A stretch of DNA of 64,000 nt from Tetradesmus obliquus (Eukaryota > Chlorophyta > Chlorophyceae > Sphaeropleales > Scenedesmaceae): assembly GCA_030272155.1 (NCBI GenBank), contig CP126195.1:5811001-5875000 (forward strand). Direction: 5' to 3'. Positions 5,423-63,880 of the stretch are shown here, piece by piece. Each line of letters opens with the position of its first letter. Positions within the stretch are counted from its first letter, which is position 1. Both the position numbers and the translations under genes were made by a program. The notes beneath the pieces were generated by a model, which worked only from the letters and a program-made list of their open reading frames with translations, did not search any database and was not told where the DNA came from.

Positions 5423-7456
5423 TCAGCCGCTGACAACAACGCCGCCGTTGGGGTGCAGGGTCTGGCCGCTGACGTAGCTGCCGTCCTCGCTGGCCAGGAA
5501 CACATAGCAGGTGGCGCACTCGCAAGGCTGGCCGGCCCGGCCCATGGGCACAGAGTCACCCAGCTTCTCCAGCTTCTCCTGCACATCCCAAAACAGCAAG
5601 CAGAGGACAAGAGGCACATGCTCAAAGGATAACCAAATGCAGCTCGACGCATTGGCACAGAGTTGCCCAGGCTCACAACCCTCTTCTGCAAGCGCAGGGT
5701 TCAGGCTCAAGGAGGCATGCAGATGCAGTGCACAACAGCAGGGCTGGCCGGGTCGGCCCATGGGCACAGAGTCACCCAGCTTCTCCAGCTTCTCCTGCAA
5801 GCAGCAAACACATTGATAGGCAGGAGGAGGCAGAGCAGGGCACAAGCGCTACGGATCAGTGCACTATCGTACGGCTGGCCGGGGTGGCGTATGGCACAGA
5901 GTCACCCAGCTTCTCAAGCTTCTCCTGTAGGCATAAGAAGCAGTAAAACAACGGAAAGGTGAGCGGTTGGGTGCGCAATCAAGGGATATGCAGAGGGCTG
6001 GCCGGGGCACTTCATTGGCACGGAATCACCCAGGCCCTCCAGCTTCTCCTGCAAGCAGCAACCACCAGTATGGTGGCATCGTTCAATCAGCAGTGCGGCC
6101 TAATGCTGCTCATGGCACAGCAGCAGGGCTGGCCAGCACGGCCCATGGGCACAGACTTGCCCAGCTTCTCAAGCTTCTCCTGTAGACATAGAGATAAGCA
6201 GCAGAAAGCGGAGCAGTGTGCAGCACATTCAAGAGACATGCAGATGCAGCTGAGTGCATGTTGGCAGGACTTGTCAGGGCGGCCCATGGCACAAATTCAC
6301 TCAGGCTCTCGAGCTTATCCTGCAATGCAAATGCATCAACAATGCAGCGAGGCACTGAGAGCAACACAAAACAGCAAGGCAATATGCGAATGCTGCCCCA
6401 GGCAGCCTAGTCCAGTGTGCACTTGCAGATCTGGGCGGGGCAGCACATGGGCGGCGAGTCGCGCCAGGCTCTCGAGCTTCCCCTGTACACATGTGTGACA
6501 CATACTAGCAGCACTGCGGCAGATGAGGGGATGATCAATGCAGCGGCCCAGTGCACATGTAAGGGTGCCCCATGGGCCCTGCATCGCCTGAGCTCACGAT
6601 ATTCTCCTGTGGCCAGATGGATCAGAAGATCAAACATGACACTGTCTTGTTGCACCTCTGATCCACCTGCCCACAGGAGATCAAACATGACACTGTCTTG
6701 TTGCACCTCTGATCCACCTGCCCACAGGAGATCAAAGCGCGTGCAGATGCGACTCGGTGCATGGAAGCAGGCCTCTGCCAAGAGAGGCCCATGGGCACGG
6801 AAACACCCGGGCTCTTTTAGCTTCTCCTGTGCGCAGATACACAGGCTGCATATGTGTTATCCGTAAGCCACGAATACAGAGGACACACAGGTACAGCAGA
6901 GTGCGTAAGGTATGGCTGCCTGGGGCATGGATATACCCAGGTTCTCGACCTTGTTTTGCGGTGCAGCGATTGGATAAGGAACGCCTACGCCATAGGTGCA
7001 CCGCAGAAGAAGGTCGAGCACGGTGTGGGGCATGTGGAAGCACGGCTCAAAAGCACAGGGGCACATGAGTGGCACCAGCTCAGTTGTCGTTGGCGTTGCC
7101 AGCCAGTGGCTGATGGGACGCCTTGCATCACAGTGCAGCAGAGCAGAACAGAGCAAGCAGAGCCAAGCAGGAGCTGCAGACGCTTATCATGCTGGCATTG
7201 CACGTCACTAACGCCTAGAAAGGTGGCGGGCTGCAGTGGTTTCCACATACCTCAGGCACCTTGATTACACAGCAAATCAAAGCATCCCTCAACCCTAAAC
7301 CCAGCACGAATAATGATTTCCAACACTAACACTCACTCCTGGGAAGGTGGCGGGCTGCAGGGGCGTCCAGATGGGGCCAGGGGCCACTGCGTTAACACGG
7401 ATGCCCTTGGACACCAGCTGGTTGCTCAGCGCACGCGTGAAGGAGATCTGCAAAGT

Positions 7457-7489
<33 letters not shown>

Positions 7490-8024
7490 GCAGCAGCCGT
7501 GTACACGACGCTGTTAGTGGATGCATGTTAGCCTGAGTTTTGTTGTGCGCTGTTTGGCAGCCTGTGACTTGCAGCAACACTTCTTGCAACTGCTGGCATT
7601 TGGCAGCTGCTAGTTGCAGGGCCTGCATGTGGCAGTGGCTGACAGTCCATGTGCATCACAGTCCTGCCTTTGCTCCCTTGGTTAAGGTGTAGTTCACAAG
7701 GTGCTGGCAGATCAAAGCAGAAGGAAACCAACTGCTTGAGTTGCATGTGCCTGCTGTTGTGTGTGTTTGCTCACCTGTGCTCCCTTGGTTGAGGAATAGT
7801 CAACCAGGCGCTGAGAGCTCCACAAGCAGAGAACCAACTGCTTGAACTGCATGTGCTCCCTGTTGATTTCATCGATCTCAAAGTGTGCCGCACCTGAGCT
7901 CCCTTGGTTGAGGAGTAGTCAACGAGGCCTGGGCTGCCCTTGTAGGCTGTGACGCTGCTGGTGTTGATGATGGAGGCACCCTCCTTCATGTGAGGCAGCG
8001 CAGCCTGTGCAGCAGCAGCAGGGC

Positions 8025-8085
<61 letters not shown>

Positions 8086-11000
8086 GGTGTTGATGATGGA
8101 GGCGCCCTCCTTCATGTGAGGCAGCGCAGCCTGTGCAGCAGCAGCAGCAGCAGTGGTGTCCGTAGCGGTGGCAGCAGCAGCAGCAGCAGCAGTGGTGTCG
8201 GTGTTGGTGATGGCAGCAGCGACAGCACGTGCCATTGCACTGGCAAGAGCACAGCAGGCAACAGCAGTGTGGTTCACATCCTCCCCATCACTTGCTTTCC
8301 TCAAGCCTCATGGTAGTCTGCTGCACCTGGGCAATTTGCGTCTTGATTTGTGGTGACTTCAGAGATTGACACATAAAGCTGCACGCAGTGGAAGCAAACC
8401 GCAGTTAAAAAAATAGCATAACACAACGTAGCGCACCAAAACGGCAGCCAGCCGCACCTGGGCCATGTAGAAGTAGCCAAACACGTTTATGGAGAAGGTG
8501 GAGACCAGCTGTGCCGGGTCAATTTTGGTGAAGTCTGTCTGCATGTGCTGCTGCGCGGCGTTGTTGACCAGGACGTCCAGGCGGCCAAATTCTGCCACTG
8601 TCTTCTCAACCACCTCCTTGGCAGTCTGCAGGGGGAAAAATAACATGAAGAAAAGGCAGGGCTGTGGTGAGGCAATGATGGCGGCATTGCTGTTGACCAG
8701 GAGGTCCAGTCTGCCAAACTCAGCCACTGTCTTCTCTGCCACCTCCTTAGCGGTCTGCAGATCTACACATGCACATTGCATTACATTACATTATATTACA
8801 TGCTCCACTCAACGAGGAGTGGGAACCCCAGTCAGGAGCCAACGAGAGGCTCATAGGGAGGAAACATCGAAGGAAAACTCATCATCGTCCAAACCGCCAG
8901 AAGAAACCTCAGAAAAGAACTCCTCAGCGTCATCAATAGCTTGAGCAATAGCATGAGAGGGCAAAAGAACCTCAGGATCAGTGTCCGGGTGACACCGCAT
9001 CAGATAGCAACAGTGCACAAAAGCAGCCACCAAAGCAGGTGACTGTCTCATAAAAGTGATCATGTCATCGCCTGCTGGATGGCACCCAGCAATGGTAGCC
9101 CATGTCTGTGACGAGAGATAGAAGGGAGCCACGCCCAAGCGTGGCTCCCTTCTATCTACGAGGCCCCGAAGGGTTCAAACAACATAGCAAACCGCTCGCG
9201 GACTGGTGCATAGAACGGGCACTCAAAGAGCATGTGAAACTCATCCTCAACAACCTCAGACTAGCAACCAGGGCGTAAGCACACCCTGTCACTTCGCGGC
9301 ACAGGAGGTCGCTGCCACCTGCCACTGCAGACACGTAAATCATGAGCACCCAAACGGAAACGGGTCAAGGACCCCAGATGCTCTCTGTTGATCCCAGCAG
9401 TTTGGGAGACATAATCTCGGCACCATAAAGCTGGGCTCACAGACAGCATGTCAGCAGCAGAGCATGCCGCAAACCACCGCTCATAAGTATTGTAGACGCC
9501 ATGACCACTAGCAGCATCACGCGGGTTGACAGGGCACCCCTGCCACTGCTGATACAAAACGCCATCAAAAGCACTCGCAATGGTTTTCAGATCCAGAGCC
9601 TGGAAGTTTTGCAGCCGTTGCACGGCATCTCGCAGCTGCTGTGAGTGGGCATGCACATAATCAAGTACACGTCGCAACTGTGTGCACCACACTGCGCCAC
9701 TGCTGGAAGTTGTGGACAGCCGTAAGTTGTCACGCATAGCACAGGCCAAAAGGGAGGACGCATCCAGATCCACAACCCTGTTCCACATGCCCACTGCCGC
9801 ACGAAGCCACAAACTGACCAAAGGCTGGTGTAGTGTGGTGGTGGGCCCCAAATTCTCTAGACAGAAGCAAGCGAGCAGTGGACTTGCGGACGCGTCCTGC
9901 AAGTGTACGCAGAAACGTGAACTGCACCCTGCTGATGACATTGTTCTGCAACTTGCTGACCAAAGCAGCACCCGAGCCCGCCTGGCTCAGCAGGGCTGGA
10001 CCCCACACTTCGGAACAATAGCACAGGATTGGAGACACAAGAGAGTTGAAAAGCTGCACCTGCATTGACAGACTGCGAATGCCATGCTCCTTGCATCTGG
10101 CCAGCATAGCCCACATCGCTCTGCTACCTCCCGCAGCCAGAGCATCAGTGCAAACAGACACACCCTGAGTGGAATGGAACTGGACGCCCAAGTACCTGAA
10201 CTGCTGTGACACCGGGACCTGCTGCCCCTGGTACTGCCACACTGCTGCACCGCTGTAGCGCTTCCTGTCAAACACCACTACTTCTGTCTTGCCCACATTA
10301 ACCTGCATGTCATACTGATTGCAGCAATTGAACTTGTGCAAAACCATATGACATCTCCTGCAAAAATGGCGTGCACAGACATCCTTCCGATCGCACATGT
10401 ACTTCTAAGTACAGCCTGCTCAGTCAATCCCAGCGCCTGCGCAACAAAAGACATTTTCAGGACAGAGACCTGTGCATTTGCCTCTAGCCCAGGCAGCCAA
10501 AACGCGACAAATCGAAACAAAAAACGCACCTCAGGCTTGCTGACATCGCCCGCAAACTTCAAGCAGCGCCGGCCTTCCTTCTTGACCAGCTCCACCACCT
10601 CATCAGCATCAAGGTGCTCATTGCGAATCATGTGCCGAGTGCATCTTGTTCAAGATCCCAGCCAGATCAGCAACAGCTATCTTCAGGACTGAGACCTGCC
10701 TCTAGTCCAGGCAGCCAAAACCTTTCCAACAGAAATCTCAACAAATTGAAATAAAACGGCGCACCTCAGGCTTGCTGACATCTACTGCAAACGTCAGGCA
10801 CCTCCTGCCCTCCTTCTTCACCAGCTCCACCACTTCATCGGCATCCTTGTGCTCATCAAGGTGCAGCACACCCTGAACTACACAATTGGCTTTGTGCCTC
10901 GCCTCCTGCCCTTGCAACAAGTGAAGTCACACCACACCGTCCAGACTGACATCCATGCTGCCTCAGGCTCTGGCCCATGTAGCCAACACGGCTGCTACAA

Positions 11001-11189
11001 CATTTAGGAACCCACCTCTGGCTTGCTGACGTCTCCTGCAAACTTGAGGCACCTCCTGCCCTCCTTCTTCACCAGCTCCACCACTTCATCAGCATCCTTG
11101 TGCTCATCAAGGTACAGGATGGCGATGTCGGCTCCTTCACGCGCAAAATGCACAGCAACGGCACGGCCAATGCCAGAGTCACCGCCTGC

Positions 11190-11223
<34 letters not shown>

Positions 11224-11546
11224 TGTGCGTACTGCAGCAGAGGATGGCCACGGCAGCGCCCTCACGTGCGAAATGCACAGCAACGGCACGGCCGATACCG
11301 GAGTCGCCACCTGCACAACAGCAGCAGCAGCAGCAGCAGTGTGCTCATCCAGTTACAGGATGGCCATGCCAGCGCCCTCACCCCCGAAACACACAGCAAC
11401 AGCATGGCCTATCCCCGAGTCGCCACCTGAATAACACCAGCAGCACGAGCAGCAAAGTGTGTAATGCGTTAGAGAATGGCCACATCGGCACCCTCACGCG
11501 CGGAATGCACAGCAACAGCACGGCTGATGCCGGCGTCGCTGCCTGC

Positions 11547-11590
<44 letters not shown>

Positions 11591-12095
11591 GTGCTTGTCC
11601 AGGTACAAGATGGCTACGTCAGCACCCTCACATGCAAATGCGCAAAATGCATCGCCACAGCACGCGTGATGCCGCCGCCACCTGGAGTGCAGACATGACA
11701 GCGGCGGTGCATTACTTTGAACGGGTGTCGTGGTTTACTTTGCAACATCACCTGTGATGATGGCCACCTTGCCCTGTAGCTTCCTGTGTGTTTGCAGTAA
11801 CCCTACACCCTAAACCCTGGTGCTGCCTCACCTGTGATGATGGCCGCCTTGCCCTGCAGCTTGCTGTGTTTCGGCAGAAACCCTATATCCTGAAGCCAAC
11901 TAGGCTTGAAGACTCCAAACACTCAACACCAGACGCTACACACCACAATTTGGGTTGAACCCTAAGGCTCCCGCACCTGTGACGATGGCCACCTTGCCCT
12001 TCAGCTTGTCGCTGCCCTTGTAGGAGTCACGTATGAAGATGGGCTTGGAGGCCATGTCAGCCTCCACACCAGGCTGGTGCGCCTGCAGCAGCAGC

Positions 12096-12129
<34 letters not shown>

Positions 12130-12487: not shown

Positions 12488-12608
12488 GTTGTCGCTCTCT
12501 CTGTAGCGGCACCTGCATTGGTGGGTGTTGCAGTAACGCAGAATGCAGTAGCAGGGCTCATGACGTTTACCCAGCTGTGCCTGCATTGATGGCAGGTTTA
12601 CTTCTGCA
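12488..12608. promoter_or_regulatory. SDR upstream region
   Basis: The 120 bp before the SDR ATG (12487) separate it from a weak plus-strand frame starting at 12609. No TATA box or other named motif is evident; called promoter only by position. Confidence 0.3.
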
Positions 12609-13024
12609 GCATGGCTGCCAGTTGTGCAGCTTTCTGGGTGATTGCTGATGTCCACAACATTGAAGATCTGAGCTCGAGTGCTGCAGCAAGTGTCGCAGCA
12701 CACCTGGTCTGAGCAGCTGATCTGCCAGCAGGCATCACTGCGCTGCACATTGCATGCCTGCTAATCACAGGCCGACATGCAGAGCTGGCCTGCTTGATCC
12801 TAGAAGTGCCCACGCTTGCAGAGGCCAGCATAGTTCCTTTTTGTAGTTCCGAAGGTTTCGTTATTGCAGAGAAGCTTCTTGGCAAATACAGGTGTCGTCT
12901 GTTTCAGTCTGACAGCACTCACCTGTTGAAGTTGCTTGGTCAAGCAATTGCTGTATCACGATCGATGATGAACGCAACTGTGACAGTTTGTCATGCTTTG
13001 AATGAATATGATACGAGCGTTTAA
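12609..13024 (+). pseudogene. Ankyrin-repeat-like fragment with in-frame TGA
   Basis: One frame reads MAASCAAFWVIADVHNIEDL, meets TGA at 12708-12710, then continues ADLPAGITALHIACLLITG and a helical tail to a stop at 13024. GITALHIAC...HAELACLIL fits one ankyrin repeat. With the interrupting stop and no partner repeats, this is either a remnant or one exon of a gene whose other exons I cannot place. Confidence 0.35.
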
Positions 13025-13146
13025 ATGATTGATTGATAAGCATCGCCGCTGATGTCGCTCCAAGTCAGCCTTGGACTTTAAGCTGAGAAGAGGTCGAACG
13101 AGAGGGTCTTGTCGTTGACGCTCAAGCCAATATGAGTTTTTTCATT

Positions 13147-23938: not shown

Positions 23939-24207
23939 CGGCTGCAGACATCACTGCTTGTACACAGCACAATGTATGCGATCTACTCAGCAGCAGCTGC
24001 GACTGCAAGGCCACAATGGCAGCAACCAATTCGGATGTTTGGCGCAATACAGGTAGTGCTAAGCCTACTACCAAACCGCCGCAGCTGCCGGCCTGCGTTG
24101 CTGCTGCCTGCAGCCGCAACCCTGCATTGCAGCTGCTGCAACAGTGATCCTGCATTGCCGCTGCCGCAGCAGCCGCCCTGTATCCCTATGGAGCCTGCTA
24201 CAGCCCA

Positions 24208-24597
24208 GAGGCCAGCAACAGCCACGCACACTGCTACAGCCCAGAGGCCAACAGCAGCCACACACACACTGCTACAGCCCAGAGGTCAGCAACAGCCATG
24301 CGTCCCTGCTACAGCCCAGAGGCCAGCAACAGCCATGCGTCCCTGCTACAGCCCAAAGACCAGCAACAGCCATGCGCCCCTGCTACAGCCCAAAGACCAG
24401 CAACAGTTATGCGTTCCTGCCCAGAGGCCAACAGCAGCCATGCGTACCTGCTACAGCCCAGAGGCCAGCAGCAGCCATGCGTCCCTGCTACAGCCTAGAG
24501 GCCAGCAACAGCCATGCGTCCCTGCTACAGCCCAAAGACCAGCAACAGCCATGCGTCCCTACTACAGCCTAGAGGCCAGCAGCAGCCATGCAAACCG
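24208..24597. repeat. 37-bp minisatellite
   Basis: Ten to eleven copies of a unit of about 37 bp (core CCAGCAACAGCCATGCGTCC, then CTGCTACAGCCCAGAGG) with substitutions and one short copy. The period is not a multiple of 3, so it is not a protein repeat; frames across it are artefacts. Confidence 0.95.
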
Positions 24598-24599
24598 CT

Positions 24600-40751: not shown

Positions 40752-43610
40752 TCGCCTGGCGATGCTGAGGACAGCGCGCCTTGAATGGCTGCCAGGTTGG
40801 CACCTACGCGGCCTAAGCTGCGCTGCGTGTGCTGCAGGCTGCCCTGCAGGCGCAAGAACAGACACATGATTGCAAGAACGCAACGGTTTCAGACAGAGCT
40901 ATGAGCGTATGCAAAAGCCTGCAACAAGTAGGCCACGCAAAAGGCACATGGCCTGCTTGTTACTAAACCAGGCCGTGTTGTCAAACGAACCACGCTGCGC
41001 TGCGTGTGGTGCAGGCTGCCCTGCAGTGCTGTTCATAATTGCATCATCCTTGCAGCTCGATGCAAACCATAGTCTGCAAACCCCATGCTGGACTCTTGCA
41101 GCATCTGCCACCTAACCCACCTGCATGCGAGCCACCTGGTCAACTGCAGAGCCTGCAGCCTGCAGCGCGCCCCGCCCAGGAGCAGCAGCAGCAGCTGCAG
41201 CAGCACTGGTGAACCCAAACACAGCGCGGCCCACATCAGCATCCGCGGTGGGTTCTGTTATCGTGCCGGCATGCTGCTGCTGCTGCTGCTGCCAGAGTGA
41301 AGCTGCTGCTGCTGCTGCTGCTGCTGGCTCTTCAGCAGTCGCGGCTGCATCAGCAGCAGCTGCTGCCGGCTCGTGGTGGCCGCTGCGGTTGATCAGCTGC
41401 TGTAGGAAAGCCTCCAAAAAGTCCAAGTTGGCACCCGGTGCTGCTCCTGCTGCTGCTGCTGCTGCTGCTGCAGCACCTGCATTGCCGGCTGCTGCATCTC
41501 GCGCCACTGCTGCTGCTCCAGTGCTACGGGTACTGCTGCTGCTGCTGCCGCCTCCATCAGCAGACTGCAGCTCAAACCTGCATACGGGGCAGGTGTTGTG
41601 CTGCAGGCAGCAGCCACACCAAGCACAGCAGGCAGGCACGCAGGCAGGGTCAAGCAATGTCAGGCAGGTAGGGACCTCAGTGGCTGTGGAGGTTAAAGCG
41701 GCTGTACACAACCTGTTCTGGTCTCACTAAGATTGCAGCTATGACACAGCCCCTCAGCCTGTCCTGCAGCCGCATTCTCTTGCTGTGCGTCCCGCTGCTT
41801 GACTTCAGCTGCACTGCGCTGCTGCCACACCGCTGTGATCACCTCGTAATGCACTGCACTGCACTGCACTGCAAATCACTGCATACACAACAACAGGCAG
41901 TGCTGTTCCTGCAAGCCACAGCCTGTCCTCCAGCCTCTATCTCACACCTAGCCCAGCCAGGGCAGCACTGCACTGAACTGCACCGCACTGCAAATGCATC
42001 ACTAAACAGCCCTGTTCCTGCAAGCCGCGGCCTGTCCTGCAGTCTTCACTATTAAAAATATTCACATCAGTATTACACTGCGCCGCGCTGCGGTTCACAT
42101 GCACTTTAAGCACAACGGACAGCCCTGTTCCTGCAAGTTACAACATTTCCTGGAGTCCCTATTCAACACACGCACCTCCCACAGCCAGGGCAGCACTACA
42201 CTGAACTGCACCGCAATGAAAACACAACAATAAACAGCCCTGTTCCTGCAAGCTAGGGTGTAGCTGTCCTGAAAGTCTCTATCACACACGCGCGCACCTC
42301 CCCCAGCCAGGGCAGCACTACACTGCACTTCAAAGCAAACACACCAACAGACAGCCCCGTCTCTGCGATCTCCTGCAAGCCACAGCCTGTCCTGCAAACA
42401 TTTTAAGTCTAAATCACGCGCGCACCTCCCCCAGCCAGGGCAGCAGGCAGGCCTCATGGAAGCAGTGCCTGCAGGGCAGCGCCACCACCTGCCCGCCAGC
42501 CACAAACTCCTCGTGGCACACCGTGCACGGCTCGCCGGCGCTGCAGAAGGCTGCTGCTGCTGCTGCTGCATGTGGTGCTAGGGCTGCTGATGCTGGTGCT
42601 GCTGCTACGATTTCGGGCTGTTCTGGTGCTGCTGCTGCTGCTGCTGTGAGCTGGCCTGCGGCAGTTGTTACAACCGGCTGGATGCTGCCTGCTGCTGAGT
42701 TGCCTGCTGCATGCAACTGCTGCTGTTCTAGATTGCATGGCAATGAGCTGTTCTGTTGAAACTGCTCTGCAGGTTGCGCGGCCAAGCCTGGTTGTTGCTG
42801 CTGCACTTCTTCTTGCTGTTGCTGCTGCTGGCTGCTTCTGCTGTGCTGTTCCGCGTGGCTCTGTTGTTGCTGCCGCTGCTGCTGCTGCTGGTCCATATGT
42901 AGCCGTGTAGGGTGTGAGGGCTGCTTGCAGCTTTGTAGCTTGGGGTACTGGCCCTGTTGCAGGTCCTGGGTATTACAGCTGCTGCTTGTGCTGGTGCTGC
43001 CAGCAGCAGCAGGCGGCACAACCAGGCGCGGCAGGGAGTCTATTACTTCCTGTGCAGTTGGCCTGCTTCTGCTGGCACCCATCAACTGCAGTAGAAGCCC
43101 ATCCAGCAAGTCCATAGTGATGCCTGATGTTCCTGCAAGGTTGACCCTGCCTGTAGCTGGCGCTGCTTGCTGCCCTTGCTGCTCCTGTTCCGAGAGTGTG
43201 CTGCCAGCAGCATCTACACCCGAGTTTTCTGCTGATGGTTGGGTTCCTGCCTGGCTAGCAGCCAGCAGCAGTGACAAGGCAGGATGCTGCCCAGTCTGAT
43301 GCTGCTGTTGCTGCTGGTACTGCTGCTGCATGCCCGGGCCTCCTCCCTGCAGTGCATGCAGCAAACACGTGACATGTATGTGGATAAGGCACACAACTTA
43401 CGCATTGGCAACTGATGCCATGCGCCGGGGAAGCAAGACACTGACCTGCAACAGCAGCTCGGGGCCCGACAGAAGTTCAACAGCGCCGGAGCGGCATCTT
43501 GGGCACTCAGGGTTGCCATGCGAGTCCCTGACAAGCGTATACTGCCCAGCTTGCAACCAGAGCCCGCAGGCGTGGCAGAGCAAGTCCTCTGCCTGCTGTT
43601 GATGCTCCAT
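36899..43610 (-). CDS. RNF126-like RING-H2 E3 ubiquitin ligase, giant disordered tail
   Basis: Six exons: 43610-43446, 43346-42426, 41600-41121, 40843-40296, 39957-38906, 38529-36899. Phases agree throughout and sum to 1,599 codons (1,598 aa). Residues 12-40 form an RNF115/126-type zinc ribbon (CHACGLWL ... CPRCRSG). The RING-H2 is at about 338-376: CTVCHEEF, then CRHCFHEACLLPWLGE joined across the intron to HNTCPVCR, with all eight ligands present. It should accept E2-ubiquitin and ubiquitinate substrates in cytosol or nucleus. The remaining 1,200 residues are Ala/Ser/Gln-rich, with short helical stretches (AAQYAALLQERASLQQLYQQ; LQSDLSSLMSQADALL) and an acidic 10-residue repeat near the end. 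RNF126-type proteins are usually only 300-400 aa, so the tail is exceptional; a second gene fused by mis-prediction remains possible. Confidence 0.82.
36970..37210 (-). repeat. Coding 30-bp repeat, acidic decapeptide
   Basis: The unit AEAVDTDAAD is repeated about eight times with variants (AADADAADTD, AEAVHTDAAD) near the C-terminus of the RING protein. The 30-bp DNA period keeps the frame, so unlike the intronic minisatellites this one is consistent with translation. Confidence 0.85.
40993..41030 (-). repeat. Echo of RING-gene exon-4 start
   Basis: TGCAG then GGCAGCCTGCACCACACGCA lies about 180 bp upstream of the true exon-4 start at 40843 (GGCAGCCTGCAGCACACGCA), with acceptor retained. Confidence 0.85.
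41940..42330 (-). repeat. Three echoes of the RING exon-2 end
   Basis: The exon-2 end encoding LPWLGE with its donor and the following intron (true end 42426) is repeated downstream at about 42290-42320, 42170-42200 and 41945-41975. Each copy is followed by a CTTGCAGGAACAGG-like stretch, giving a roughly 120-bp unit. The copies fall between the two halves of the RING domain. Confidence 0.85.
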
Positions 43611-44737: not shown

Positions 44738-44976
44738 CTAAATCTCATCTTCCGAGCCCAGATCGCTGCTCGCAAACTCATCAACAGAAGGGAAGTCGCC
44801 AGCCGTCACTTTGTCCGGCCGCACAAAGCCGCCGTGGCCTGGCGGGCAGCTGAAGTAACGCTTGCCTTTTGCGCTGCCGTCATTCTTGCCCAGCGGCTCA
44901 TCAAATGCCACACCCACCCAGAAGCCCTCGCCAAGGCCCTCCACGCGGCCCACGTACCTAAGGTTTCACGTGCGAA

Positions 44977-45015
<39 letters not shown>

Positions 45016-45145
45016 GGCAGAACAGGGTTAAACACAGGTGAAAATGAAGTGTTTGTCAAGACAGAATAGGCATGCCACACCCACCCAGAAGCCCTCGCCC
45101 AGGCCCTCCACGCGGCCCACGTACCTACACGGTTGCATACGCACG

Positions 45146-45207
<62 letters not shown>

Positions 45208-46921: not shown

Positions 46922-48010
46922 GCCGCTGCCGCTGCTGCTGCCCATTGCCCATCCCTTGGCTGCAGCCGCCCCACGTCCTAGCCCAGCCCTGGCCCATGTT
47001 TGCTGTCTGATGTACTTCTCACGCGCTCCCAAAGTTGCAAAGCATTACTGCAATTGCACAAGCAGAAAGTCAAAAAAACTATAACACCCACCCGTCGCGT
47101 GGGCTGTAGTAGCCCAGCTTCCTGCTGCCCTCCTGCAGCACGTCCACCAGCCGCCCTGATTACCTTTACCTCCCTCACCTGTCTCTGTCTGCAGCCGCCC
47201 CGCATCCTGGCCCGTTCCTGGCCCTGACTTTATGGCTGCTTCACTTCTTAACACACCAGCAAAGCTGCAAGATGTTGCAGCTGCAAAACATTGCCACAAA
47301 CACAAACAAACAAGCAGAATCTTGCACAACACACCAACTCACCCGTCGCGTGGGCTGTAGTAGCCCAGCTTCCTGCTACCCTCCTGCAGCACGTCCACCA
47401 GCCGCCCCGCCTCGTCCTGCAGGTGCAGCGTCATGCTGAGCACGCTGGTGCCCGTCATGCTGTTGATCTTGGCCTTAACCGCCTCAACAGTCATCTGCAG
47501 CAGCAGGAAAGAATAGAGAAGCAAGGCTTTAGCACAGCATAGTACATCAATACAGCATGAGTGCCAGGCTACTGCTGCTGCTGCTGCTGTGGTGGAGTGA
47601 TGGAAGGGGCGACAGGTGCATGTCCGCTATCAAGGCCCCTCTGGCAATGCTGACGTTGCCGTTTATGCCTTCCACATAGACAGACAGACAAGAAACATAA
47701 ACCATTTTGGTTGCTACACCAAGACGATCACTTCTCGTCTTTCATGCATGCAGCTGATGTCACTGACTGGTGCCCCTGCTGCTGTCGCCTGGCGACCCCT
47801 GTCGTGCTGCAGCTGCTGCTGTTCTGCCACTTCATCACACCGTAAACCTACGTGCTTGTCTAGCCGAATCTCGGGGAATCGGGCCTTCAAATGGTTGTGC
47901 GTGATGAACAGCTGCACTGTGCTTTCTGCTGACTGCTGCATGGTACTTGACCCCGACACATACTCCTTCAGCGCCGATATAGTCGTGGGGGGAGCGTAAG
48001 CAGCAGCCAT
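44738..48010 (-). CDS. TBCB: Tubulin-folding cofactor B
   Basis: Six exons: 48010-47852, 47494-47343, 46748-46676, 46218-46092, 45855-45738, 44957-44738, in phase and giving 282 aa. Residues 1 to about 120 form the ubiquitin-like domain (TVQLFITHNHLKARFPEIRL; LGYYSPRDGWRLHVIDTDD). A charged linker follows (VTKYVMSEEDYSSRDNTYRK). The CAP-Gly domain lies at about 195-262: SVGQRCCVEPGERCGEIKYV, LGEGFWVGVAFDEPLGKNDG, CPPGHGGFVRPDKV. The protein ends in DEI, as TBCB does in other eukaryotes. TBCB binds alpha-tubulin after chaperonin release and acts with cofactor E in the cytosol. Start chosen at the first ATG giving a full Ubl domain. Two introns contain boundary echoes. Confidence 0.93.
44979..45014 (-). 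repeat. CTG (sense) tract near the CAP-Gly acceptor
   Basis: A run of twelve CAG units on plus (CTG in sense) starts 22 bp upstream of the CAP-Gly exon. A longer run at 45148-45206 precedes its echo copy in the same way. Confidence 0.9.
45070..45127 (-). repeat. Echo of the CAP-Gly exon start
   Basis: GTGTAG then YVGRVEGLGEGFWVGVA is repeated upstream of the true exon (from 44957), with near-identical bases for about 55 bp, and then runs into an unrelated sequence. Acceptor and phase match the true one. Confidence 0.9.
45400..45433 (+). other. G-run, possible G-quadruplex
   Basis: Plus strand reads several G-runs in close order (GGGGGAGG, TGGGGGGGTGG and a run of 13 G) inside a TBCB intron. 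It could form a quadruplex or be an assembly-sensitive homopolymer. Confidence 0.6.
47090..47250 (-). repeat. Echo of TBCB exon-2 end
   Basis: VDVLQEGSRKLGYYSPRDG plus donor (true end 47343) recurs about 245 bp downstream at 47093-47160. The flanking intron is also duplicated (CTGCAGCCGCCCC near 47190 and 46962), so a block including part of exon 2 was copied in tandem. Confidence 0.9.
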
Positions 48011-48862: not shown

Positions 48863-49455
48863 CAACTGGCCTGCAACTGGAAACTGGCCCGGCCAGTGCA
48901 GGGCCTGCAACAGGCCTGCAACTGGCCTGCAACTGGAAACTGGCCTGCAACATGCCTGCAATTGGCCTGCAACTGGCCTGCAACAGGCCTGCAACTGGCC
49001 TGCAACTGGCCTGCAACTGGCCTGCAACTGGCAACTGGCCTGCAACTTAGAACCGGCCTGCAACTGGGAACTGGCCTGAAACAGGCCCGCAACTGGCCTG
49101 CGACTGGCCTGCAACTGGCAACAGGCCCGCAACAGGCCTGCAACTGGCCTGCAACTGGCAACAGGCCCGTAACTGGCCTGCAACTGGCCTGCAACCAGCA
49201 ACATGCCTAGGCCTGCAACAGGCCTGCAACTGGCTTGCAACAGGCCTGCAACTGGCCTGCAACAGGCCTGCAACTGGCCTGCAACAGGCCTGCAACTGTT
49301 TAACTGGCCAGCAACTGGGGACTGGCCTGCAACAGGCCTGCAACTGGCCTGCAACCGGCCTGCAATTGGGAACCGGCCTGCAACAGGCCTAGCAACATGC
49401 CTAGGCCTGTAACAGGCAACTGGCCTGCAATCCTGCAACTGGCAACTGGCCTGCT
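48863..49455 (-). repeat. 11-12-bp acceptor-like minisatellite
   Basis: About 50 tandem units of GGCCAGTTGCA (sense minus) with small length changes fill roughly 590 bp. In sense, each unit contains TTGCAGGCC, the same bases as the acceptor junction of the possible exon directly downstream. Frames across it read AGQLQASCRP-type peptides on one strand and NWPATGLQLAC on the other; both are artefacts. Confidence 0.95.
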
Positions 49456-54554: not shown

Positions 54555-56054
54555 GTGTTGTTGAGCCGCTGCTGGCACTTGAACTTGCTGGAGATGGCTG
54601 CGCCTGCGCTCCAGCACAGCTCGGTGGGCGGCAGCCCAGCATCCAGCGGCCGCAGCTCCTGCAAGAAAAAAAGAATAAATATAAAATAATATAACATAAT
54701 ACATAATGTAATATGATAATATAATATAAAATTATATTGTTTGCACGTTTATAGTTGCAGACATGGGCAGCTCAGTGGGAGGCAGCCCAGCCTCCAGCGG
54801 CCGCAGCTCCTGCACAAAATCAAATGATAATAAAATGGTTCTGAAATGATTTCAGACGTTTCTATGCTGGAGAACATGGCAGCTATCAAGCTACCAGGGC
54901 TCTACAGTCCAGCGACCGGCATATCCGGCGAGTGGAAAACAAGCAAGCAGCCCAGCTACAGTTTTGATGCTGGCATCGAGGGGTGTTGCCGAGCCACACA
55001 TGTCACAAACTGTAAGGTTGAATCTGATTCCGTGCCACGGTGGCTCCTATGAGTTGGTGCCAGGATCCACATGTATCTATCCACTCATAACTCGCAACCT
55101 ACCTGCGGGCTGTGGGCGAAGAAGCACACAGGCCTGTCGCACTTGGAGCGAAACATGCACATCTCCGTGCGGAACCTGGCGGCGGCAGTTGCAGACACAA
55201 CATAATTGTCAAATGAATGAATGAATGAGGTACGCGTGGTGTGTCAAAACTCACCACCCGCGTAAGGTAAGGGAGGGTGTGTGTGACGCCAGAACTGTCA
55301 AGAAACGGCACGCAGACAGTGATGTGATCTAGTTGTCGCCAGTGGCTGAGGTGGCATCTGCATTTGCAGCATGGAATTGCCATGTCTGAGGTTAGATGCT
55401 GCACCGAGTCAGTGCACCAACGATGCTGATGGATTATACCGTCTTGCGTGTGCTGAGCTTGTAATTAGAAACACCAGGCACCATGCAGACAGCTCAGTGA
55501 CATCCGCAGCAACCCAACAGGTGCTGTCTGGAACTCATGCCCATTGGTGAATGCTGCTGCCGCACAGGCCTTGTGTCCTTACACTCACCGCATGGGGTAC
55601 AGCCAGTACTCAAACAGCTGTATGCAACAGAAAGTAAACGGCGACAGGGCCCAAGAGGAGTGAGTGTGACTTTAGCAGCAGGCAATGCAGCAGATGCTTC
55701 AACTGTACCACTGCTATCGCTGCTGCCAGCAGGGCTGTTCCGCTGGTGCACAAATGCACACTGTCATCACATGCGCAGCTGACGTTAATTGCCAGGGTTT
55801 CGAAAATACACGATGATGCAGGGCAGGAGATACCAGCAGAAAAGGTACTTCTGCAAGCAGAGGGTTTCCAGATGACTGAGGGGCTGGATCTAGATCAAAG
55901 CAGCAGAGCTTGCAGCAGCACGATGCTGCGTTGATCACGTTGTGGCAATGTATATACAGGCACTCATTGCTTACGTTGTGTGCGTGGGGGCACTCGTCAC
56001 CCGCGGGGCACTCCTGCCTCTGCACCATTACAATTGCAGTACAGGCGTCACCAC

Positions 56055-56095
<41 letters not shown>

Positions 56096-58124: not shown

Positions 58125-58129
58125 TTACA
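58125..58129 (-). terminator. UGUAA poly(A) signal for the AKR gene
   Basis: TTACA on plus (TGTAA in sense), 92 nt after the AKR stop codon. Confidence 0.5.
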
Positions 58130-58220
58130 TCCTCCCGATGCAGTGTCTCAGACCCACTCAGCCCTAAAACCTAGCGGTCGTCAGCTTTCCTGCAGCCTGC
58201 TGTGCGTCACGATGCCCCAC

Positions 58221-58792
58221 TCAGCTCGTCTGGAAGATGTTTTGTACCATGCTGCTGCTGCAGCGTGCTGCTGCTGCATCAAGCTCTGCCACCTCCCCAC
58301 TGCTCAACCGCCAGCCCAGTGCCCCCAGATTCTCCCTTGCTTGAGCCAGATCCTTTGCTCCAGGGATGGGCACCGTACCCTTGCAGATGCACCAGTTGAT
58401 GGCCACCTGCGGGTGATTATAAAACATTGAGAGAAGCCCAATGCACAGCGGCAGCAGCAGCAGCAGCACTTAGTATTTCAACTTATAGGCATGGCGTCCT
58501 CCATCCCCTGTCCTGCCATCGGCCAGAGTGCTTACAAAAGTCCAGCAACCGGCTGCCTGACTGCCGCTAGTACAAACGCAGTCGCGGGACAACCGGCCGT
58601 AAAAAGGCCACACAGTAGCACAAGCCACACACACTGCTGCAAGCCGCCACGCGCACCTGTGACACTGTCTTGCGCCTGCTGGCTGCCACTGCGGCCAGTG
58701 CTGCTGTCAGTGGGGCGATGCCGGGCAGCAGCTGCTTGAAAAGGCTGCCACGAGGGCCCTTGGGCAGGATGTCTGTGCTGTACTTCCCTGCA

Positions 58793-58832
<40 letters not shown>

Positions 58833-58932
58833 TTTGGGGAATGCAGGCAGTTGTTTGTGAGTTGCTGCCAGCAGCTGCTTGAAGAGGCTGCCTCGTGGGC
58901 CCTTGGGCAGGTTGTCTGTAGTGTACTTGCCT

Positions 58933-58968
<36 letters not shown>

Positions 58969-61900
58969 GAAGCAAGCAGTGTAAGCGCCCGTGGGCAAGA
59001 CGGGGCCGACGAGCTGTACTCGATCAGCACAAGCCGGCAAATCCTAGACATGCAAGCACAGTCATGAAAACAACGCAACTGAACCTCAGGGTCAGGCCTG
59101 AACCCCAAAACAGAAACCAACCCACATGTAAGCAGGCCCAGGGCCAGCGGGCTGTATGCAATCAGCACGATGCCCAGGTCATCCGCCACCACCAACGAAA
59201 CTCAACCCTGAAATCTGTACTGAACCCTAACACGGAACCAGGAAAAGAACCCACTGTGGGCAGCCCCAGGGCCAAGGGGCTGTATGTAATCAGCACAATG
59301 CCCAGTTCATCCGCCACCACCAACGAAACTCAACCCTGAAATCTGTACTGAACCCCAACACGAAACCAGGAAAAGAACGCACCCGTGAGCAGCCCAAGGG
59401 CCAGGGGGCTGTATGCATTCAGCACGATGCCCAGGTCACCCCCCACCACCAACGGAACTCAACCCTAGAGTCAGTAGTGAACCCTAAAACAAGCACCAAC
59501 CCACCCGTGAGCAGCCCCAGGGCCAGCGGGCTGTATGCAATCAGCACGATGCCCAGGTCATCCGCCACTGCCTTGATGGAGGACTGTGCAGGGCCCGCGC
59601 TCAGCAGAGAGTACTGCACCTGCGCAGCCAGCAGCAGCAGCAGCAGCAGCAGCAGCATGTGGTCAGTCAGGCATCATTCACAGTAGGTCATGCAAGCGCA
59701 ACACAACAAACTAGGGGCAACGCCAGCTCTTAGTGGTGCACGAAAGCTGGCCTCTGCACGCCGTGCATCTAGCACCCCAGCAAAACAGTGCCAGCCGCCG
59801 CACCTGTGTGGAGGCGCTCCTCACACTCCCGCGCCATGTCACACTCACAGGCAGCGCCACAACAACACATATAGCCAGCGGAGTACCTAAACACTCCCGG
59901 ATTTTTGTGGGAGTTTGATTTTCAGTGGCTGGGAGTAGGCACCTACTCCCGCCGGGGGTGGCACCCCAACTCCCATGGAGTTGGGCCTGGAGTACCCCTG
60001 ACTGGAGCACCCAGGAGTACTCCTGGAGTACTCCAAATTTGTTTTAAACTCCAGGAAGTATGTGGGAGTACTCTGGGAGTACTTTGGGAGTGGTTCAGCA
60101 GCACTCCCGCAAAACCCTCGACCTGCCTGGAGGACTACTCCGGAGTACTCCAGCTACTCCAGGCTGACCTACAAACTCACGCGAGAGTGCAGATGCGCCA
60201 TTTGCGACAATGACAATAACTTTCTATCAATCCGAACCTACATTCTTGTTCTGGCTGAGCTCACGCATTCGCCAAATTTTCCTTCTGGGTAGCTTGACGT
60301 GAACCTTCGGTGCACGCGCCTTTTAACAAACAAGCATCGACAAATATTGCAACGTAAACGATTGCACCGCATGAGGGTGCAAAAGCCGAATTTCCTTCCC
60401 TCGGTCAACTCTATAGGCCCAGCTCGGTCACTGGTCTAACTCCCCACAATAACAGCAGCTGCACCTCAGCACAGCAGTGCTCATGAACAGCATACACTGG
60501 AGGTAATCGAACGAACAGCTAAATTGTGACATCAAACCATACACAACAACAGGGACACGGTGCTGTTTTGTAGACTGTCAGTGAAGCAAGCAATCAGGTC
60601 TTGCCTGTCGCCGCCATGCTGTACACTGTACACTGCGGCAGTTGTGCAGCCAGCCAGCAGCAGCAGCAGCAGCAGCGTGAGCACACGCCTCCTCCAGAAA
60701 CATTAGACGTGGTGTGCTGGGTTTGATTTAGGGTTCAGGGTGCAGGGTTTGGTTTAGGTGATGCGTGCAGGTGAGGGTTTAGGGTATCAGTGCGGCGATG
60801 CGAGCGGAGCTAAACCATAACCCTAGCCTCCTAAAACCCTAACCCTAACCCTAGGCCACTGCTAGGCCGTCTGGGTCCCGGCCGCTGTGGGCGGCCGAGC
60901 CAGCACACCACCACAGGGAAGCACGGCCTAGCAGTGGCCTAGGGTTAGGGTTAGGGTTTTAGGAGGCTAGGGTTATGGTTTAGCGTAGCCAGTACGCAGT
61001 TTAGGGTTCTGTGTGGGGTTGTGGTTTAGGTGATGCATGCAGGTGAGGGGTTGAGGGTAGTTTGGGGTGAAGGGTGCAGGGTCTGGTTTAGGTGATGCGT
61101 GTAGGCCTAAGCACCCAGGTGCTTCAGCTGCCCTCGCTTTCCGTTCATGCTGCACAACAATTGCACGCTATCAAAGCGTGCAAACAACATAGGGCTTGTT
61201 CATCTGAAGGCAAGCAGCAAATGACATTGTACATGCAGCAGCAGCAGCAGCAGTGGAGATGCAGCTACGCAGCATGCATGCCAGCTGATGAGGCATCCTG
61301 CAGAAGATGCAGCAGGCAGTTGTGCTGCCCTCTGCTTGAATGGGCTTAAGCACAAGCTTGTGCTGTAGTGCGACAGAAATGTGCCATGCACGACTGCACA
61401 GTGCACTCATGTGTGCAAGTCATACAGGATACACCGGGCACACGGCCTCACTATAAAGTAAACAAAGTGCTGTCGTGTATGCTGAAGTACTCGAGTGCTG
61501 TTCAGGGGGTGCGGGCGGGAGTAGCGGGAGTACTCCGGAGTGCTACTCCAGGGGGGTAGGGTGTGTGTCTTGCTGGGAGTACACTGGGAGTACTCCCTGG
61601 AGTAAAATGGGAGTATTAAGGCACTCCTCTGCCTATATGTCCACAACAAAGTCAAGGCGGACCGTGAGCCTCAAACACACCACCCCACCCTGCAAGTGCT
61701 GCTCAAGGTGGAGACCTTGCCAACAGAGCCAGCCGCCGCACCTGTGCGGAGGCCAGCTGCACGCCGCGCTTCTCAAAGTCAAGCGCCATATTTAATCTAT
61801 TTTATTCAGATGTGCAGGTGGCATGATGTTGGCTGGACTCACCTGTGCGGAGGCCAGCTGCACGCCACGTTTCTCAAAGTCCCTCGCCACGCGCCGCAGC

Positions 61901-63880
61901 TCTTTGGCGCCATAGTTGGACACGCCCACCTGCACACATGAGGCCCAAGCACGCACATGATATCCACAAGCCATGAATGTTTGTTTGAAGGTGTGAAGAC
62001 CGAGCGCAGCTTCCGAGTCCAGACACAGTCACAAACCTTCACTACGCATACATACCTGCAGCAATCGCACTATCTCAAAATATTTGGTGATGTATCCCAG
62101 CAGATTTGACACCATTCTGGAATTCAAAAATGCAGTCCCTGCTTGCCCACCTCTGCCACCAGGACCTGCTCGTAGCAGTCTGCCAGACTACTGCTGCTGC
62201 TGCTGCTGCTGCTGCGGATGCTGCTGCTGCTGCTGCCCGCCCACCTCTGCCACCAGGCCTTGCTCGTAGCAGTCTGCCAGGCCATTCCACAGCGCCCACT
62301 CCTGCAGGCGGTGCAGCAGCGCAGCCCAGCAGCACAAACAAGCTCAGGCACCCAGCAGTGGTCAGAGCTTCATGCTTAGGCGAATGCAGCGTCTGCAGTC
62401 ATGTTCACATTTGTGAAGGATACATTGTGAACAAACACGCACATGCAGCCACGCTGCGTGGCATAGATTCCTGCAGGCACCGTTGCTATGGCATGACAGT
62501 TGTCAGAGAGTGATGTTGATCCGCAGTCGCTTCTCACCTGTAGCTGTGCATACTTTGCTGCGCTCCAGTGCAGCTGCCCCAGGCTGATCTGCTCCAGTCC
62601 GGTGCGCCGCAGGCTGCCCTTGCAGGCCGCCACGATGTTGCATGCTGACACACTACACAGCGCTGCCTCATGCCGTGTTTCAGTCAGCCATACCTGCAGC
62701 GGCGCGTACTGAACCTTGCTTCACAGCGCAGCTGCAGCTGCCCAAGGCTTGTTTGTTCCTGCAAGCCTGTGCCTGCAATAAACACCCACCCACCTGCAGC
62801 CACGCATACTTTGCCACGCTCGCATTGGCTGCCCCAGGCTGATTTGCCGCTATAAGCCTACTCGTGCACAACACACCCACCAGCCTGCGCGTGCTTTGCC
62901 GCACTTTGAAGCAGCCCGGCTGGAAATCACCTGTTCCTGCAAGGTGCTTGCTGCAAAACAAACCCACCCACCTGCAGCGGTGCGTATTTTGCTGCGCTCC
63001 AGTGCAGCTGCCCCAGGCTGATCTGCTCCAGCCCGGTGCGCCGCAGGCTGCCCTTGCAGCCCCTAGCAACTACAAAACACACCCACCCACCCACCCACCT
63101 GCAGCGTTTCGTACTTGGCGGCGCTCCAGTGCAAGTTTTCCAATCAAACAACTGTGGACACACTCGTGTTGTGGTGCCGCATGCCGTGTTGCAGTTGCTT
63201 CTCACCTGCAGCGGTGCGTATTTTGCTGCGCTCCAGTGCAGCTGCCCCAGGCTGATCTGCTCCAGCCCGGTGCGCCGCAGGCTGCCCTTGCAGGCCGCCA
63301 CAATGTTGCCTGGCGTGACGCGCCAGGGGTAGGCCGCAAACTTGGTGGCAATGTGCAGGTTGGAGCGGGTCTTTTCGCTGCCTGGGTACTCCCTACAGGG
63401 CGGCGACAAACACAGAACATGATTTGAAAGTATATTATTAAAGTACGCATGAAGCATTTGGCGTGCACTTTGTCACTGCCCTGGTACTCCCCCTGCATGA
63501 GTACACAACACACAGTGCTGGAGATAGTGGGTTCAAAGGTTACTCAAGGTCCCAGTGATGGTGAGATCCAATTCAATCAACATATGGCAGCAATTGATGT
63601 GCAGCTGCTTACTGCCTAGGTGCCCGCTTCAACCTACAGTGCGTACATTCCGTATGCCTTCTGAACAGCTGAAGAGCAGCACATCGGCTTGCTGGGCTCA
63701 TGGCTTGAAGCTCTACCAGTGTACTGTGTCACCTTGCTTGCTCACAGCACCCTGCACCGCGCCGCTATCGCCTGGTAAATGCTGCCTATCAAGTCTCTGG
63801 GCAATCCTGTAACATACAATTATCTCACCGGATGAACTGCCCCAGCAGCTGCTCACTGCGCCCATTCAGCGCTCCTGTGC
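58221..63880 (-). CDS. Aldo/keto reductase, plant plastid-type (5' partial)
   Basis: Seven exons in phase: 63880-63829, 63392-63206, 62301-62245, 61929-61843, 59619-59505, 58787-58657, 58406-58221. The product reads ALNGRSEQLLGQFIREYPG, IATKFAAYPWRVTPGNIV (catalytic Lys in ATKF), LEQISLGQLHW (catalytic His), WALWNGLADCYEQGLVAEVG, VSNYGAKELRRVARDFEKRG, IVLIAYSPLALGLLTGKY, then VAINWCICKGTVPIPGAK and ENLGALGWRLS. This order matches At1g06690-type plant oxidoreductases, NADPH-linked TIM-barrel reductases thought to be plastidic. The catalytic Asp and Tyr and any transit peptide lie off the right edge. Substrate unknown. The 2.2-kb intron 4 holds telomere-like and GGAGTACTCC repeats; nearly every intron holds exon echoes. 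Confidence 0.9.
58860..58938 (-). repeat. Upstream duplicate of AKR exon 6 start
   Basis: CTGCAG then KYTTDNLPKGPRGSLFKQLL lies about 150 bp upstream of the true exon (KYSTDILPKGPRGSLFKQLL, from 58787). Both follow a sense CTG tract and have the right phase, but this copy lacks a usable donor and the remaining exon. Confidence 0.9.
59122..59450 (-). repeat. Three echoes of AKR exon-5 end
   Basis: The segment coding DDLGIVLIAYSPLALGLLT with donor (true end 59505) recurs downstream near 59383-59440, 59255-59315 and 59128-59190, with intron bases (GGTTTCGTGTTGGGGTTC-like) included. Unit about 120-130 bp. Confidence 0.9.
59800..59836 (-). repeat. Distant, degraded echo of AKR exon-4 end
   Basis: Reads RECEERLHTQ followed by GTGCGGC, resembling FEKRGVQLASAQ plus donor. 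It lies about 2 kb from the true exon, on the far side of the telomere-like block. Confidence 0.6.
59887..60170. repeat. GGAGTACTCC palindrome cluster
   Basis: Many GGAGTACTCC or near variants (CTGGAGTACTCC, GGGAGTACTCTGG, CTCCGGAGTACTCCAG) occur in about 280 bp, on both strands by symmetry. No coding frame. Confidence 0.85.
60660..60675 (-). repeat. Short CTG (sense) tract
   Basis: CAGCAGCAGCAGCAGC in the AKR intron with no adjacent exon copy that I can see. The rest of 60.17-60.72 kb shows no feature. Confidence 0.6.
60809..60984. repeat. Telomere-like 62-bp perfect inverted repeat
   Basis: The arms 60809-60870 and 60923-60984 are exact reverse complements and include CCCTAACCCTAACCCTAGG. 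A 52-base loop itself contains CGGCCGCTGTGGGCGGCCG. TTTAGGG/TTAGGG-type motifs continue outward at 60727-60785 and 60998-61090. It lies in AKR intron 4. Confidence 0.95.
61498..61625. repeat. Second GGAGTACTCC cluster
   Basis: GGGAGTACTCCGGAGTGCTA and related units, like the cluster at 59.9-60.2 kb. The two clusters flank the telomere-like block in the same intron. Confidence 0.85.
61739..61788 (-). repeat. Echo of AKR exon-4 end
   Basis: Reads FEKRGVQLASAQ then GTGCGGC, a close copy of the end of the exon at 61929-61843 with a shifted donor context. Confidence 0.9.
62145..62235 (-). repeat. Echo of AKR exon-3 end with CAG tract
   Basis: LADCYEQVLVAE then GTGGGC copies the end of exon 62301-62245 about 95 bp downstream. 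Between them lies a CTG tract on plus (CAG in sense), an exception to the usual intron orientation. Confidence 0.9.
62530..63140 (-). repeat. Array of about six echoes of AKR exon-2 end
   Basis: Copies of SLRRTGLEQISLGQLHWSAA with KYAPLQ and donor (true end 63206) lie at about 62968-63062 and 62533-62640 (long, nearly exact) and about 63095-63136, 62872-62945, 62788-62850 and 62694-62760 (shorter or degraded). The catalytic His segment GQLHW is thus present several times. Confidence 0.9.
63478..63505 (-). repeat. Echo of AKR exon-2 start
   Basis: CATGCAG then GEYQGSDKVHAKC resembles the true exon start (GEYPGSEKTRSNL from 63392), about 105 bp upstream. Confidence 0.8.

Follow-up and report, generated by a model that had tools for sequence, protein, structure and literature searches.

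Imperfect copies of exon edges and splice sites within introns of the green alga Tetradesmus obliquus

Tandem exon duplication, and the alternative splicing that uses duplicated exons, places a repeated exon with its splice sites beside the original. Intragenic tandem repeats and minisatellites form arrays of units, and in concerted evolution such units are homogenised by gene conversion. In AGGT-type intron gain, a local tandem duplication carrying splice motifs produces a new intron within an exon, and splicing restores the coding sequence (PMC3443670, PMC2891723). The intronic copies of exon edges reported here, which we call echoes, resemble this process in being local duplications that involve splice motifs, but they lengthen existing introns. 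They differ from whole-exon duplication in that only one exon edge is copied (29–85 bp in loci outside the window), and from minisatellites and concerted evolution in that a splice junction anchors the unit and the live exon is its conserved partner. As with introners and transposon-derived introns, the change recurs across genes; unlike introners, the copies come from each gene's own exon edge. Searches of the open-access PMC literature listed no title or abstract opening describing intronic splice-junction echoes.

The window is the whole stretch of 64,000 nucleotides that was analysed. Self-BLAST with a low-complexity filter detected 72 direct repeat pairs less than 8 kb apart in it and no inverted pairs within that distance. 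Exons were predicted with a GHMM and then selected by hand in favour of the non-duplicated reading frame, so the exon models are partly a matter of judgement. An intronic copy of the exon edge with its splice site (SW score of at least 44, with at least 18 aligned exon bases) was found at 17 of the 41 junctions tested, with 32 copies in total. Donor-edge copies were sought downstream only and acceptor-edge copies upstream only, and the copies reach up to 100 bp of exon edge, which was the limit of the query. In the SDR gene one set of junctions yields an uninterrupted protein (Pfam adh_short_C2, E 1.2e-63), and its exons and echoes are the following.

11977–12082, minus strand: SDR exon 1, with donor-edge echoes at 11832–11863 and 11752–11782
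11016–11185, minus strand: SDR exon 2, with echoes on both sides
11241–11664, minus strand: acceptor-edge echoes of SDR exon 2 (TRF period 116); 11241–11310, 11340–11426 and 11470–11542 retain AG, and in 11590–11664 the similarity starts 20 bp inside the exon and stops short of the junction
10765–10862, minus strand: first donor-edge echo of SDR exon 2, with 6/98 mismatches, GT kept and 3 bp of the intron side shared
10530–10621, minus strand: second donor-edge echo of SDR exon 2, with 15/92 mismatches
8458–8625, minus strand: SDR exon 3, with an acceptor-edge echo at 8691–8754
7894–8004, minus strand: SDR exon 4, with an acceptor-edge echo at 8085–8130 and a donor-edge echo at 7775–7809
7337–7447, minus strand: SDR exon 5, with a weak donor-edge echo at 7213–7248 (7/36 mismatches)
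5423–5578, minus strand: SDR exon 6, the last
5738–6319, minus strand: five acceptor-edge echoes of SDR exon 6 (5738–5794, 5867–5924, 5996–6048, 6123–6179 and 6280–6319), all with AG kept

Echoes in the other window genes are listed below. The names TBCB and CCCH follow the earlier note; the putative CCCH gene is represented by a single predicted exon.

63206–63392, minus strand: AKR exon, with the live donor at 63205
62538–63133, minus strand: donor-edge echoes of that exon, all with GT (63099–63133; 62972–63062, with 1/91 mismatches; 62794–62847; 62538–62637)
62151–62186, minus strand: donor-edge echo of AKR exon 62245–62301
61742–61788, minus strand: donor-edge echo of AKR exon 61843–61929
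59126–59446, minus strand: three donor-edge echoes of AKR exon 59505–59619 (59383–59446, 59255–59317 and 59126–59189), forming a regular array of units of about 128 bp that include intron bases
58869–58930, minus strand: acceptor-edge echo of AKR exon 58657–58787
54768–54809, minus strand: acceptor-edge echo of predicted exon 54579–54658 of the putative CCCH gene
47092–47156, minus strand: donor-edge echo of TBCB exon 47343–47494, with 1/65 mismatches
45072–45193, minus strand: copy, 89% identical, of TBCB sequence 44905–45020 (presumably the CAP-Gly region), seen as a repeat match
42176–42317, minus strand: donor-edge echoes of RING exon 42426–42540 (42298–42317 and 42176–42195)
1613–1640, minus strand: donor-edge echo of oxidase exon 1698–1895

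The intron side of the TBCB echo at 47092–47156 is unlike that of the live donor close by and weakly similar to it over 187 bp.

The earlier note on this DNA had reported echoes in seven genes. The junction search recovered them in six of these (SDR, AKR, TBCB, RING, CCCH and oxidase), and the seventh, OPR, lies outside the modelled set. The range assigned to them, 5739 to 63505, does not include the oxidase as modelled here (303–2568). That one set of junctions builds a full protein was confirmed for SDR. Parts of AKR (PF00248, 7.9e-25), TBCB (Ubiquitin_2, 5.8e-17) and RING (zf-RING_2, 4.9e-10) have Pfam matches, and the FAD_binding_4 match of the oxidase (1.6e-5, 25 bits) is below the cut-off of 26.4. 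RBR and a coiled-coil gene had been described as showing little or no such copying; the self-BLAST listed no repeat pair with its start between 12.0 and 24.2 kb, where these genes seem to lie.

Outside the window we sampled 188 introns (376 junctions) from 65 loci. The loci were chosen as best matches to three protein families, with DNA taken for the first 30 of 149, the first 30 of 135 and 19 of 19 matches, and introns shorter than 80 bp (2/190) and copies with fewer than 18 aligned exon bases were left out before counting. Echoes were present in 35 of the 188 introns, about a fifth, and in 23 of 60 genes. For this intron count 1 of 41 alignments was dropped, having fewer than 12 exon bases, and one intron of SDR locus 35 is counted twice, since the aligner placed a zero-length exon between two "introns" there. 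Swapped-intron controls matched in less than 0.1% of cases. At a score of at least 36, donor-edge copies were found in 17/188 introns and acceptor-edge copies in 24/188, against swapped-intron rates of 0.0004 and 0.0009. Intronic exon-edge copies are far above chance and are also present outside the window. By junction, 34/376 had an echo in these loci against 17/41 in the window, a rate so much higher that the window is no typical sample. Local repeats in the other loci were 166 direct against 2 inverted at 40 bits, and 0 after shuffling. The claim that donor copies lie downstream and acceptor copies upstream also held in these loci, with 24 matches on the right side and 2 on the wrong side for the same query in 184 tests. 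Under the AGGT model, we deduce, the 5′ end of an intron would instead resemble the start of the exon downstream, and its 3′ end would resemble the end of the exon upstream. This signature was rare (2/188 and 1/188 introns at a score of at least 36, control 0); a few introns may stem from AGGT intron gain, but not the echo class as a whole.

Window and other loci together comprised 417 junctions, with 97 copies at 51 junctions having at least one. The nearest copy lay 83–174 bp from the original at 44 of the 51 junctions, the mean difference between exon and echo over the pooled copies was 9.2%, and the alignments held 13 gaps in 4929 sites. GT or AG was retained in 86/97 copies and lost in 11. 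Among the 188 introns outside the window, those with echoes had a median length of 510 bp against 257 bp for those without (p 1.7e-12), in agreement with the lengthening proposed earlier. The direct orientation, the one-sidedness and the spacing all support recurrent duplication across splice sites, and a local duplication process as the source of the copies is very probable. The extra junction copies would turn into intron sequence, so the intron would grow, and a duplication across a junction may persist since correct joining of the exons is still possible through the first donor (or the last acceptor).

Neutral tandem duplication by itself, with breakpoints at random and harmful exon-internal duplications removed by selection, would account for the direct orientation, the one-sidedness, the longer introns and those copies, roughly half of all, that match on the intron side as well. 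In simulation, the shortness of the introns was enough for 58% of detected units to cross a junction; this simulation placed a single duplication in each intron, without arrays, with units reaching at most 85 bp into exons. However, of the 42 families that lie at a junction or in an intron only, 38 cross a junction (p 4.5e-6 against the simulated 58%). In the other loci all 55 intronic exon blocks start no more than 5 bp from the junction and extend 29–85 bp into the exon; none of the 55 is exon-interior, and only 4 come within 10 bp of the exon's far end. The unmodelled flanks also contain repeats of similar spacing, and 5/21 repeat families there have a strong splice site in both copies, compared with 0.168 per single random interval. 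This enrichment is unconvincing, and the junction preference therefore rests on the modelled introns.

The extent of similarity on the intron side also argues against neutral duplication. The tandem duplication of exon plus intron bases proposed earlier suits roughly half of the copies. In 46/97 the intron similarity ends within 10 bp past the junction, the sequence beyond being unrelated or strongly diverged, while their exon part is about 91% identical. Where the exon mismatch was below 7%, similarity of 10 bp or less was seen in 19/43 copies, against 3/345 young copies in the neutral simulation. The same held for 9/23 nearest copies per junction, and for 5/10 at single-copy junctions. Neutral duplication is already disfavoured, and we consider it unlikely.

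The 46 copies that stop within 10 bp of the junction could instead have been written by a polymerase that, in the repair of a break or at fork switching, copied the edge of the exon into the intron, with microhomology in the splice consensus (CAG|GTGAG or CTGCAG|G) as the switch point. Among short-match copies those with an altered motif stay consensus-like: 20 donors score 1.67 against 2.06 for the live sites and 10 acceptors 3.05 against 2.2, with an intronic background of -1.78 and -1.2, respectively. By contrast, in the copies with intron similarity the 5 altered acceptors score lower than their live counterparts (1.12 against 2.57). Exon-interior copies, moreover, are absent from the other loci, though coding sequence also contains CAG and CTG in abundance. 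The presence or absence of intron similarity makes no difference to exon identity (0.911 and 0.920, p 0.29) or to nearest spacing (p 0.98), which suggests a common origin for both kinds of copy. Such junction-anchored templated insertion is in our view quite unlikely.

A common origin is compatible with local duplication followed by recombination anchored on the exon, an explanation of the echoes to which we give about an even chance. The live exon edge would recombine with its echoes by gene conversion or template switching, so that the exon part stays alike and the intron part drifts. Of 25 multi-copy junctions, 3 were candidate mosaics, in which the exon and intron parts of a copy would have different nearest relatives: one kinase junction (32pk) is clear, SDR exon 2 is weaker, and SDR locus 35 gives no signal. 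At the kinase junction the two echoes are alike on the intron side (z 6.0) but resemble that of the live donor in neither case (z -0.3 for one, 0.4 for the other), and the first echo differs from the live exon at 3/48 sites and from its sister echo at 8. SDR exon 2 looks similar (6/92 and 15/92 sites). The intron sides of its two donor-edge echoes resemble each other (z 5.5) more than that of the live donor, to which the first has z 1.3 and the second is still weakly similar (z 2.3). We put the chance of the conversion step at slightly below even.

The echoes might also be functional, as alternative or poison exon ends or as decoys under selection. Exon and echo differ by 269 synonymous and 171 non-synonymous changes and 2 stops, and third codon positions hold 279/454 mismatches. 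A constrained exon compared with a neutral copy already predicts such an excess. The excess shrinks after polarising without vanishing: of the differences confined to a single echo, 69 are synonymous and 86 non-synonymous, where random mutation expects 25–31% synonymous (p 1e-7 against 0.25, 9e-5 against 0.30 and 0.002 against 0.33). If the exon changed between successive duplications, however, the older echo would show this as synonymous differences of its own, and in our view exon history probably explains the residue. The scarcity of gaps, the retention of GT or AG and the strength of altered motifs in the short-match class would fit function as well, yet by our estimate copies of the age indicated by their exon part should retain about as much, and 11 copies have lost the dinucleotide. 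We regard function as improbable. The extra splice sites are probably unused, and given the retention of GT or AG it is plausible that they are decoy sites, as the earlier note suggested.

Repeated units within introns could be produced by a mobile element or introner, or by faulty assembly, but this is hardly credible here. For the two stretches searched, the AKR intron and the TBCB spacer, no genomic relatives were found beyond their own locus (in a search that skips very common words), and assembly stutter would not give the observed mean exon–copy difference at many loci. Copying coupled to splicing or transcription seems to us very improbable. Nascent pre-mRNA or a splicing intermediate would then be the template for break repair in the intron, in the latter case with an exon edge joined to another splice-like site; precisely the exon edge and its splice motif would be written, and introns would grow by repeatedly copying their own junctions.

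In this genome junction duplication can be followed through all its stages, from 99% identity to near disappearance. Three questions become testable: by what route introns grow when no transposon is involved, how the spliceosome passes over strong additional sites some 100 bp from the correct one, and whether live exons and intronic copies exchange sequence. Annotation of such algal genomes may mistake echoes for exons, as the gene finder did here: in the window the GHMM chained echoes in as additional exons and fused genes. In a kinesin intron on C2, a Pfam profile independently detected three copies on the acceptor side.

Imperfect copies of exon edges with their splice sites (echoes), which the earlier note had reported in introns of most window genes, are real. 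Window exons were modelled by scanning for coding potential and with a gene finder whose training set was this genome, and at least one intronic copy was found at 17 of the 41 window junctions tested, giving 32 copies in total (the OPR gene lay outside the tested set). Self-comparison of the window after low-complexity filtering yielded 72 direct repeat pairs less than 8 kb apart and no inverted pairs within that distance. The note had also held that a single set of junctions builds the full protein. The SDR gene bears this out: its six exons on the minus strand encode an uninterrupted protein once the echoes are skipped, and that protein matched Pfam adh_short_C2 (1.2e-63). Pfam supported parts of AKR, TBCB and RING, and the oxidase weakly. 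Copies were arranged as follows at three exons.

SDR exon 6, minus strand: five acceptor-side copies
AKR exon, 63206-63392: four donor-side copies
AKR exon, 59505-59619: regular array with units of about 128 bp

In the AKR intron 62538-63205, two intron-side types could be distinguished by eye among the echo donors, one GTGGGT-like (echoes 63099, 62972 and 62794) and one like the intron of the live donor. Numerically, clear mutual resemblance was found only between the 62972 and 62794 echoes (z 3.7). An open stretch called by the gene finder in the large SDR intron 2 (10164-10302, minus strand) encodes a protein that presumably resembles part of a reverse transcriptase of the non-LTR type. The window also contains classical minisatellites at 711-1059, 24194-24591 and 48902-49396 (32-, 37- and 11-bp units, respectively), which differ from the junction echoes of about 110 bp. 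CAG/CTG microsatellites are very numerous throughout it; the acceptor consensus CTGCAG overlaps this motif, and CTG runs lie beside the acceptor in some echo arrays.

Echoes are also found in genes far outside the window. A whole-genome search with the Pfam kinase, kinesin and SDR profiles, from which the best matches were taken (30 of 149, 30 of 135 and 19 of 19), gave 65 merged loci of 231,144 bases. A profile-guided spliced aligner written for this analysis recovered 190 introns from them (median 275 bp) with a clear splice consensus (CAG|GTGAGC donor, CTGCAG|G acceptor). Windows at the exon edges were matched to their own intron, with introns of other genes serving as the control. The excess expected from the note was evident: at a score of at least 36, own-intron matches were found for 17/188 donors and 24/188 acceptors, against control rates of 0.0004 and 0.0009. 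Requiring at least 12 exon bases left 40 alignments, 36 of them across the junction, and placed echoes in 35/188 introns and 23/60 genes (31/188 and 20/60 at the stricter score of 44). Echo introns had a median length of 510 bp, compared with 257 bp for the remainder (p 1.7e-12). The kinesin gene on contig C2 displays the effect independently, as a Pfam search found three more segments of profile 260-289 upstream of the exon matching profile 263-326. DNA search of this gene (locus L057, 14kin) detected six acceptor-edge copies, and by our arithmetic the offsets of the profile segments agree with three of them.

The echoes are more structured than the note had supposed, being junction-anchored and narrowly spaced. 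Local repeats of at least 40 bits in the loci comprised 166 direct and 2 inverted cases, with none in shuffled loci. In the loci, 55 exon blocks were detected in neighbouring introns. Every one started no more than 5 bp from the junction (46 right at it) and extended 29-85 bp into the exon; none was exon-interior, despite a median exon of 155 bp. The exception, in the window, was one block starting 20 bp inside its exon, and window blocks ran as far as 100 bp into the exon, where that search stopped. The copies of an exon edge lie in the intron next to it and not in the far one: 184 side tests with the same query in the loci gave 24 right-side and 2 wrong-side matches. The loci contained 65 repeat families, of which 38 straddled junctions, 4 were intron-only, none was exon-only, 2 were other cases in or beside modelled parts and 21 lay in unmodelled flanks. 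Within the 38 that straddled junctions, units were at their closest 83-174 bp apart. With loci and window pooled (97 copies), the nearest copy lay at this distance at 44 of 51 junctions and up to 656 bp away at the others.

Tandem duplication, the process proposed in the note, accounts for about half of the copies; in its plain form it fails for the other half. Random neutral tandem duplication simulated with the observed unit sizes predicted that 58% of detected units would straddle a junction, compared with the observed 38/42 (p 4.5e-6). At 3 of 25 multi-copy junctions an echo had an intron side like that of a sister echo and not the live one. At the kinase junction 32pk, two echoes had a common intron side (z 6.0), and a third shared that of the live donor (z 7.2); the exon part of the first echo differed at 3/48 positions from the live exon and at 8/48 from its sister. 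SDR exon 2 was similar (6/92 and 15/92), its second echo keeping a weak resemblance (z 2.3) to the live intron. The third candidate junction lacked such an exon/intron signal. These mosaics are suggestive, though not conclusive, of a process in which live exon edges and echoes would recombine with each other. Conversion is needless for the young, plainly tandem copies.

Differences between echo and exon comprised 269 synonymous and 171 non-synonymous changes and 2 stops, with 105/1634, 70/1652 and 279/1643 sites differing at the three codon positions. Random mutation predicts a synonymous share of 25-31%, but the share is already raised because a constrained exon is set against a neutral copy. 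Differences common to all echoes numbered 24 synonymous and 6 non-synonymous. Those private to one echo (69 and 86) still exceeded random expectation in their synonymous part (p 9e-5 against 0.30). This private excess could stem from changes that the exon underwent between one duplication and the next. GT or AG was retained in 86/97 copies, by our estimate near the neutral expectation at this exon divergence. In the 46 copies sharing at most 10 bp beyond the junction with the live intron, altered motifs were still consensus-like (20 donors 1.67, live 2.06; 10 acceptors 3.05, live 2.2). Among the other copies, 6 altered donors were also consensus-like (2.05, live 2.1), whereas 5 altered acceptors were weaker (1.12, live 2.57).

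Intron gain by AGGT duplication, as modelled in PMC3443670 and PMC2891723, shares its logic with the echoes but differs in its product, and its signature occurred in 2/188 and 1/188 introns. An introner or transposon origin is unsupported: the two stretches searched, one from the AKR intron and the other the TBCB spacer, gave own-locus matches only, with no relatives elsewhere. No description of pervasive exon-edge echoes was found in the open-access literature searched.

Pairs of similar gene segments were also observed elsewhere in the genome. Mitochondrial-carrier segments at G000:C13:4602618-4609449, oppositely oriented, separated by about 5 kb and with almost identical profile scores, are perhaps a recent inverted gene duplication. 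Two kinase segments (G000:C11:4525222-4525623 and 4532166-4532567) lie about 6.5 kb from each other and face opposite ways; they match the same span of the profile, and their scores are nearly equal. DEAD-helicase exon segments at G000:C2:8541825-8541992 and 8545417-8545584, in the same orientation, 3.6 kb apart and with identical scores, may be a recent tandem duplication of a gene or a segment.
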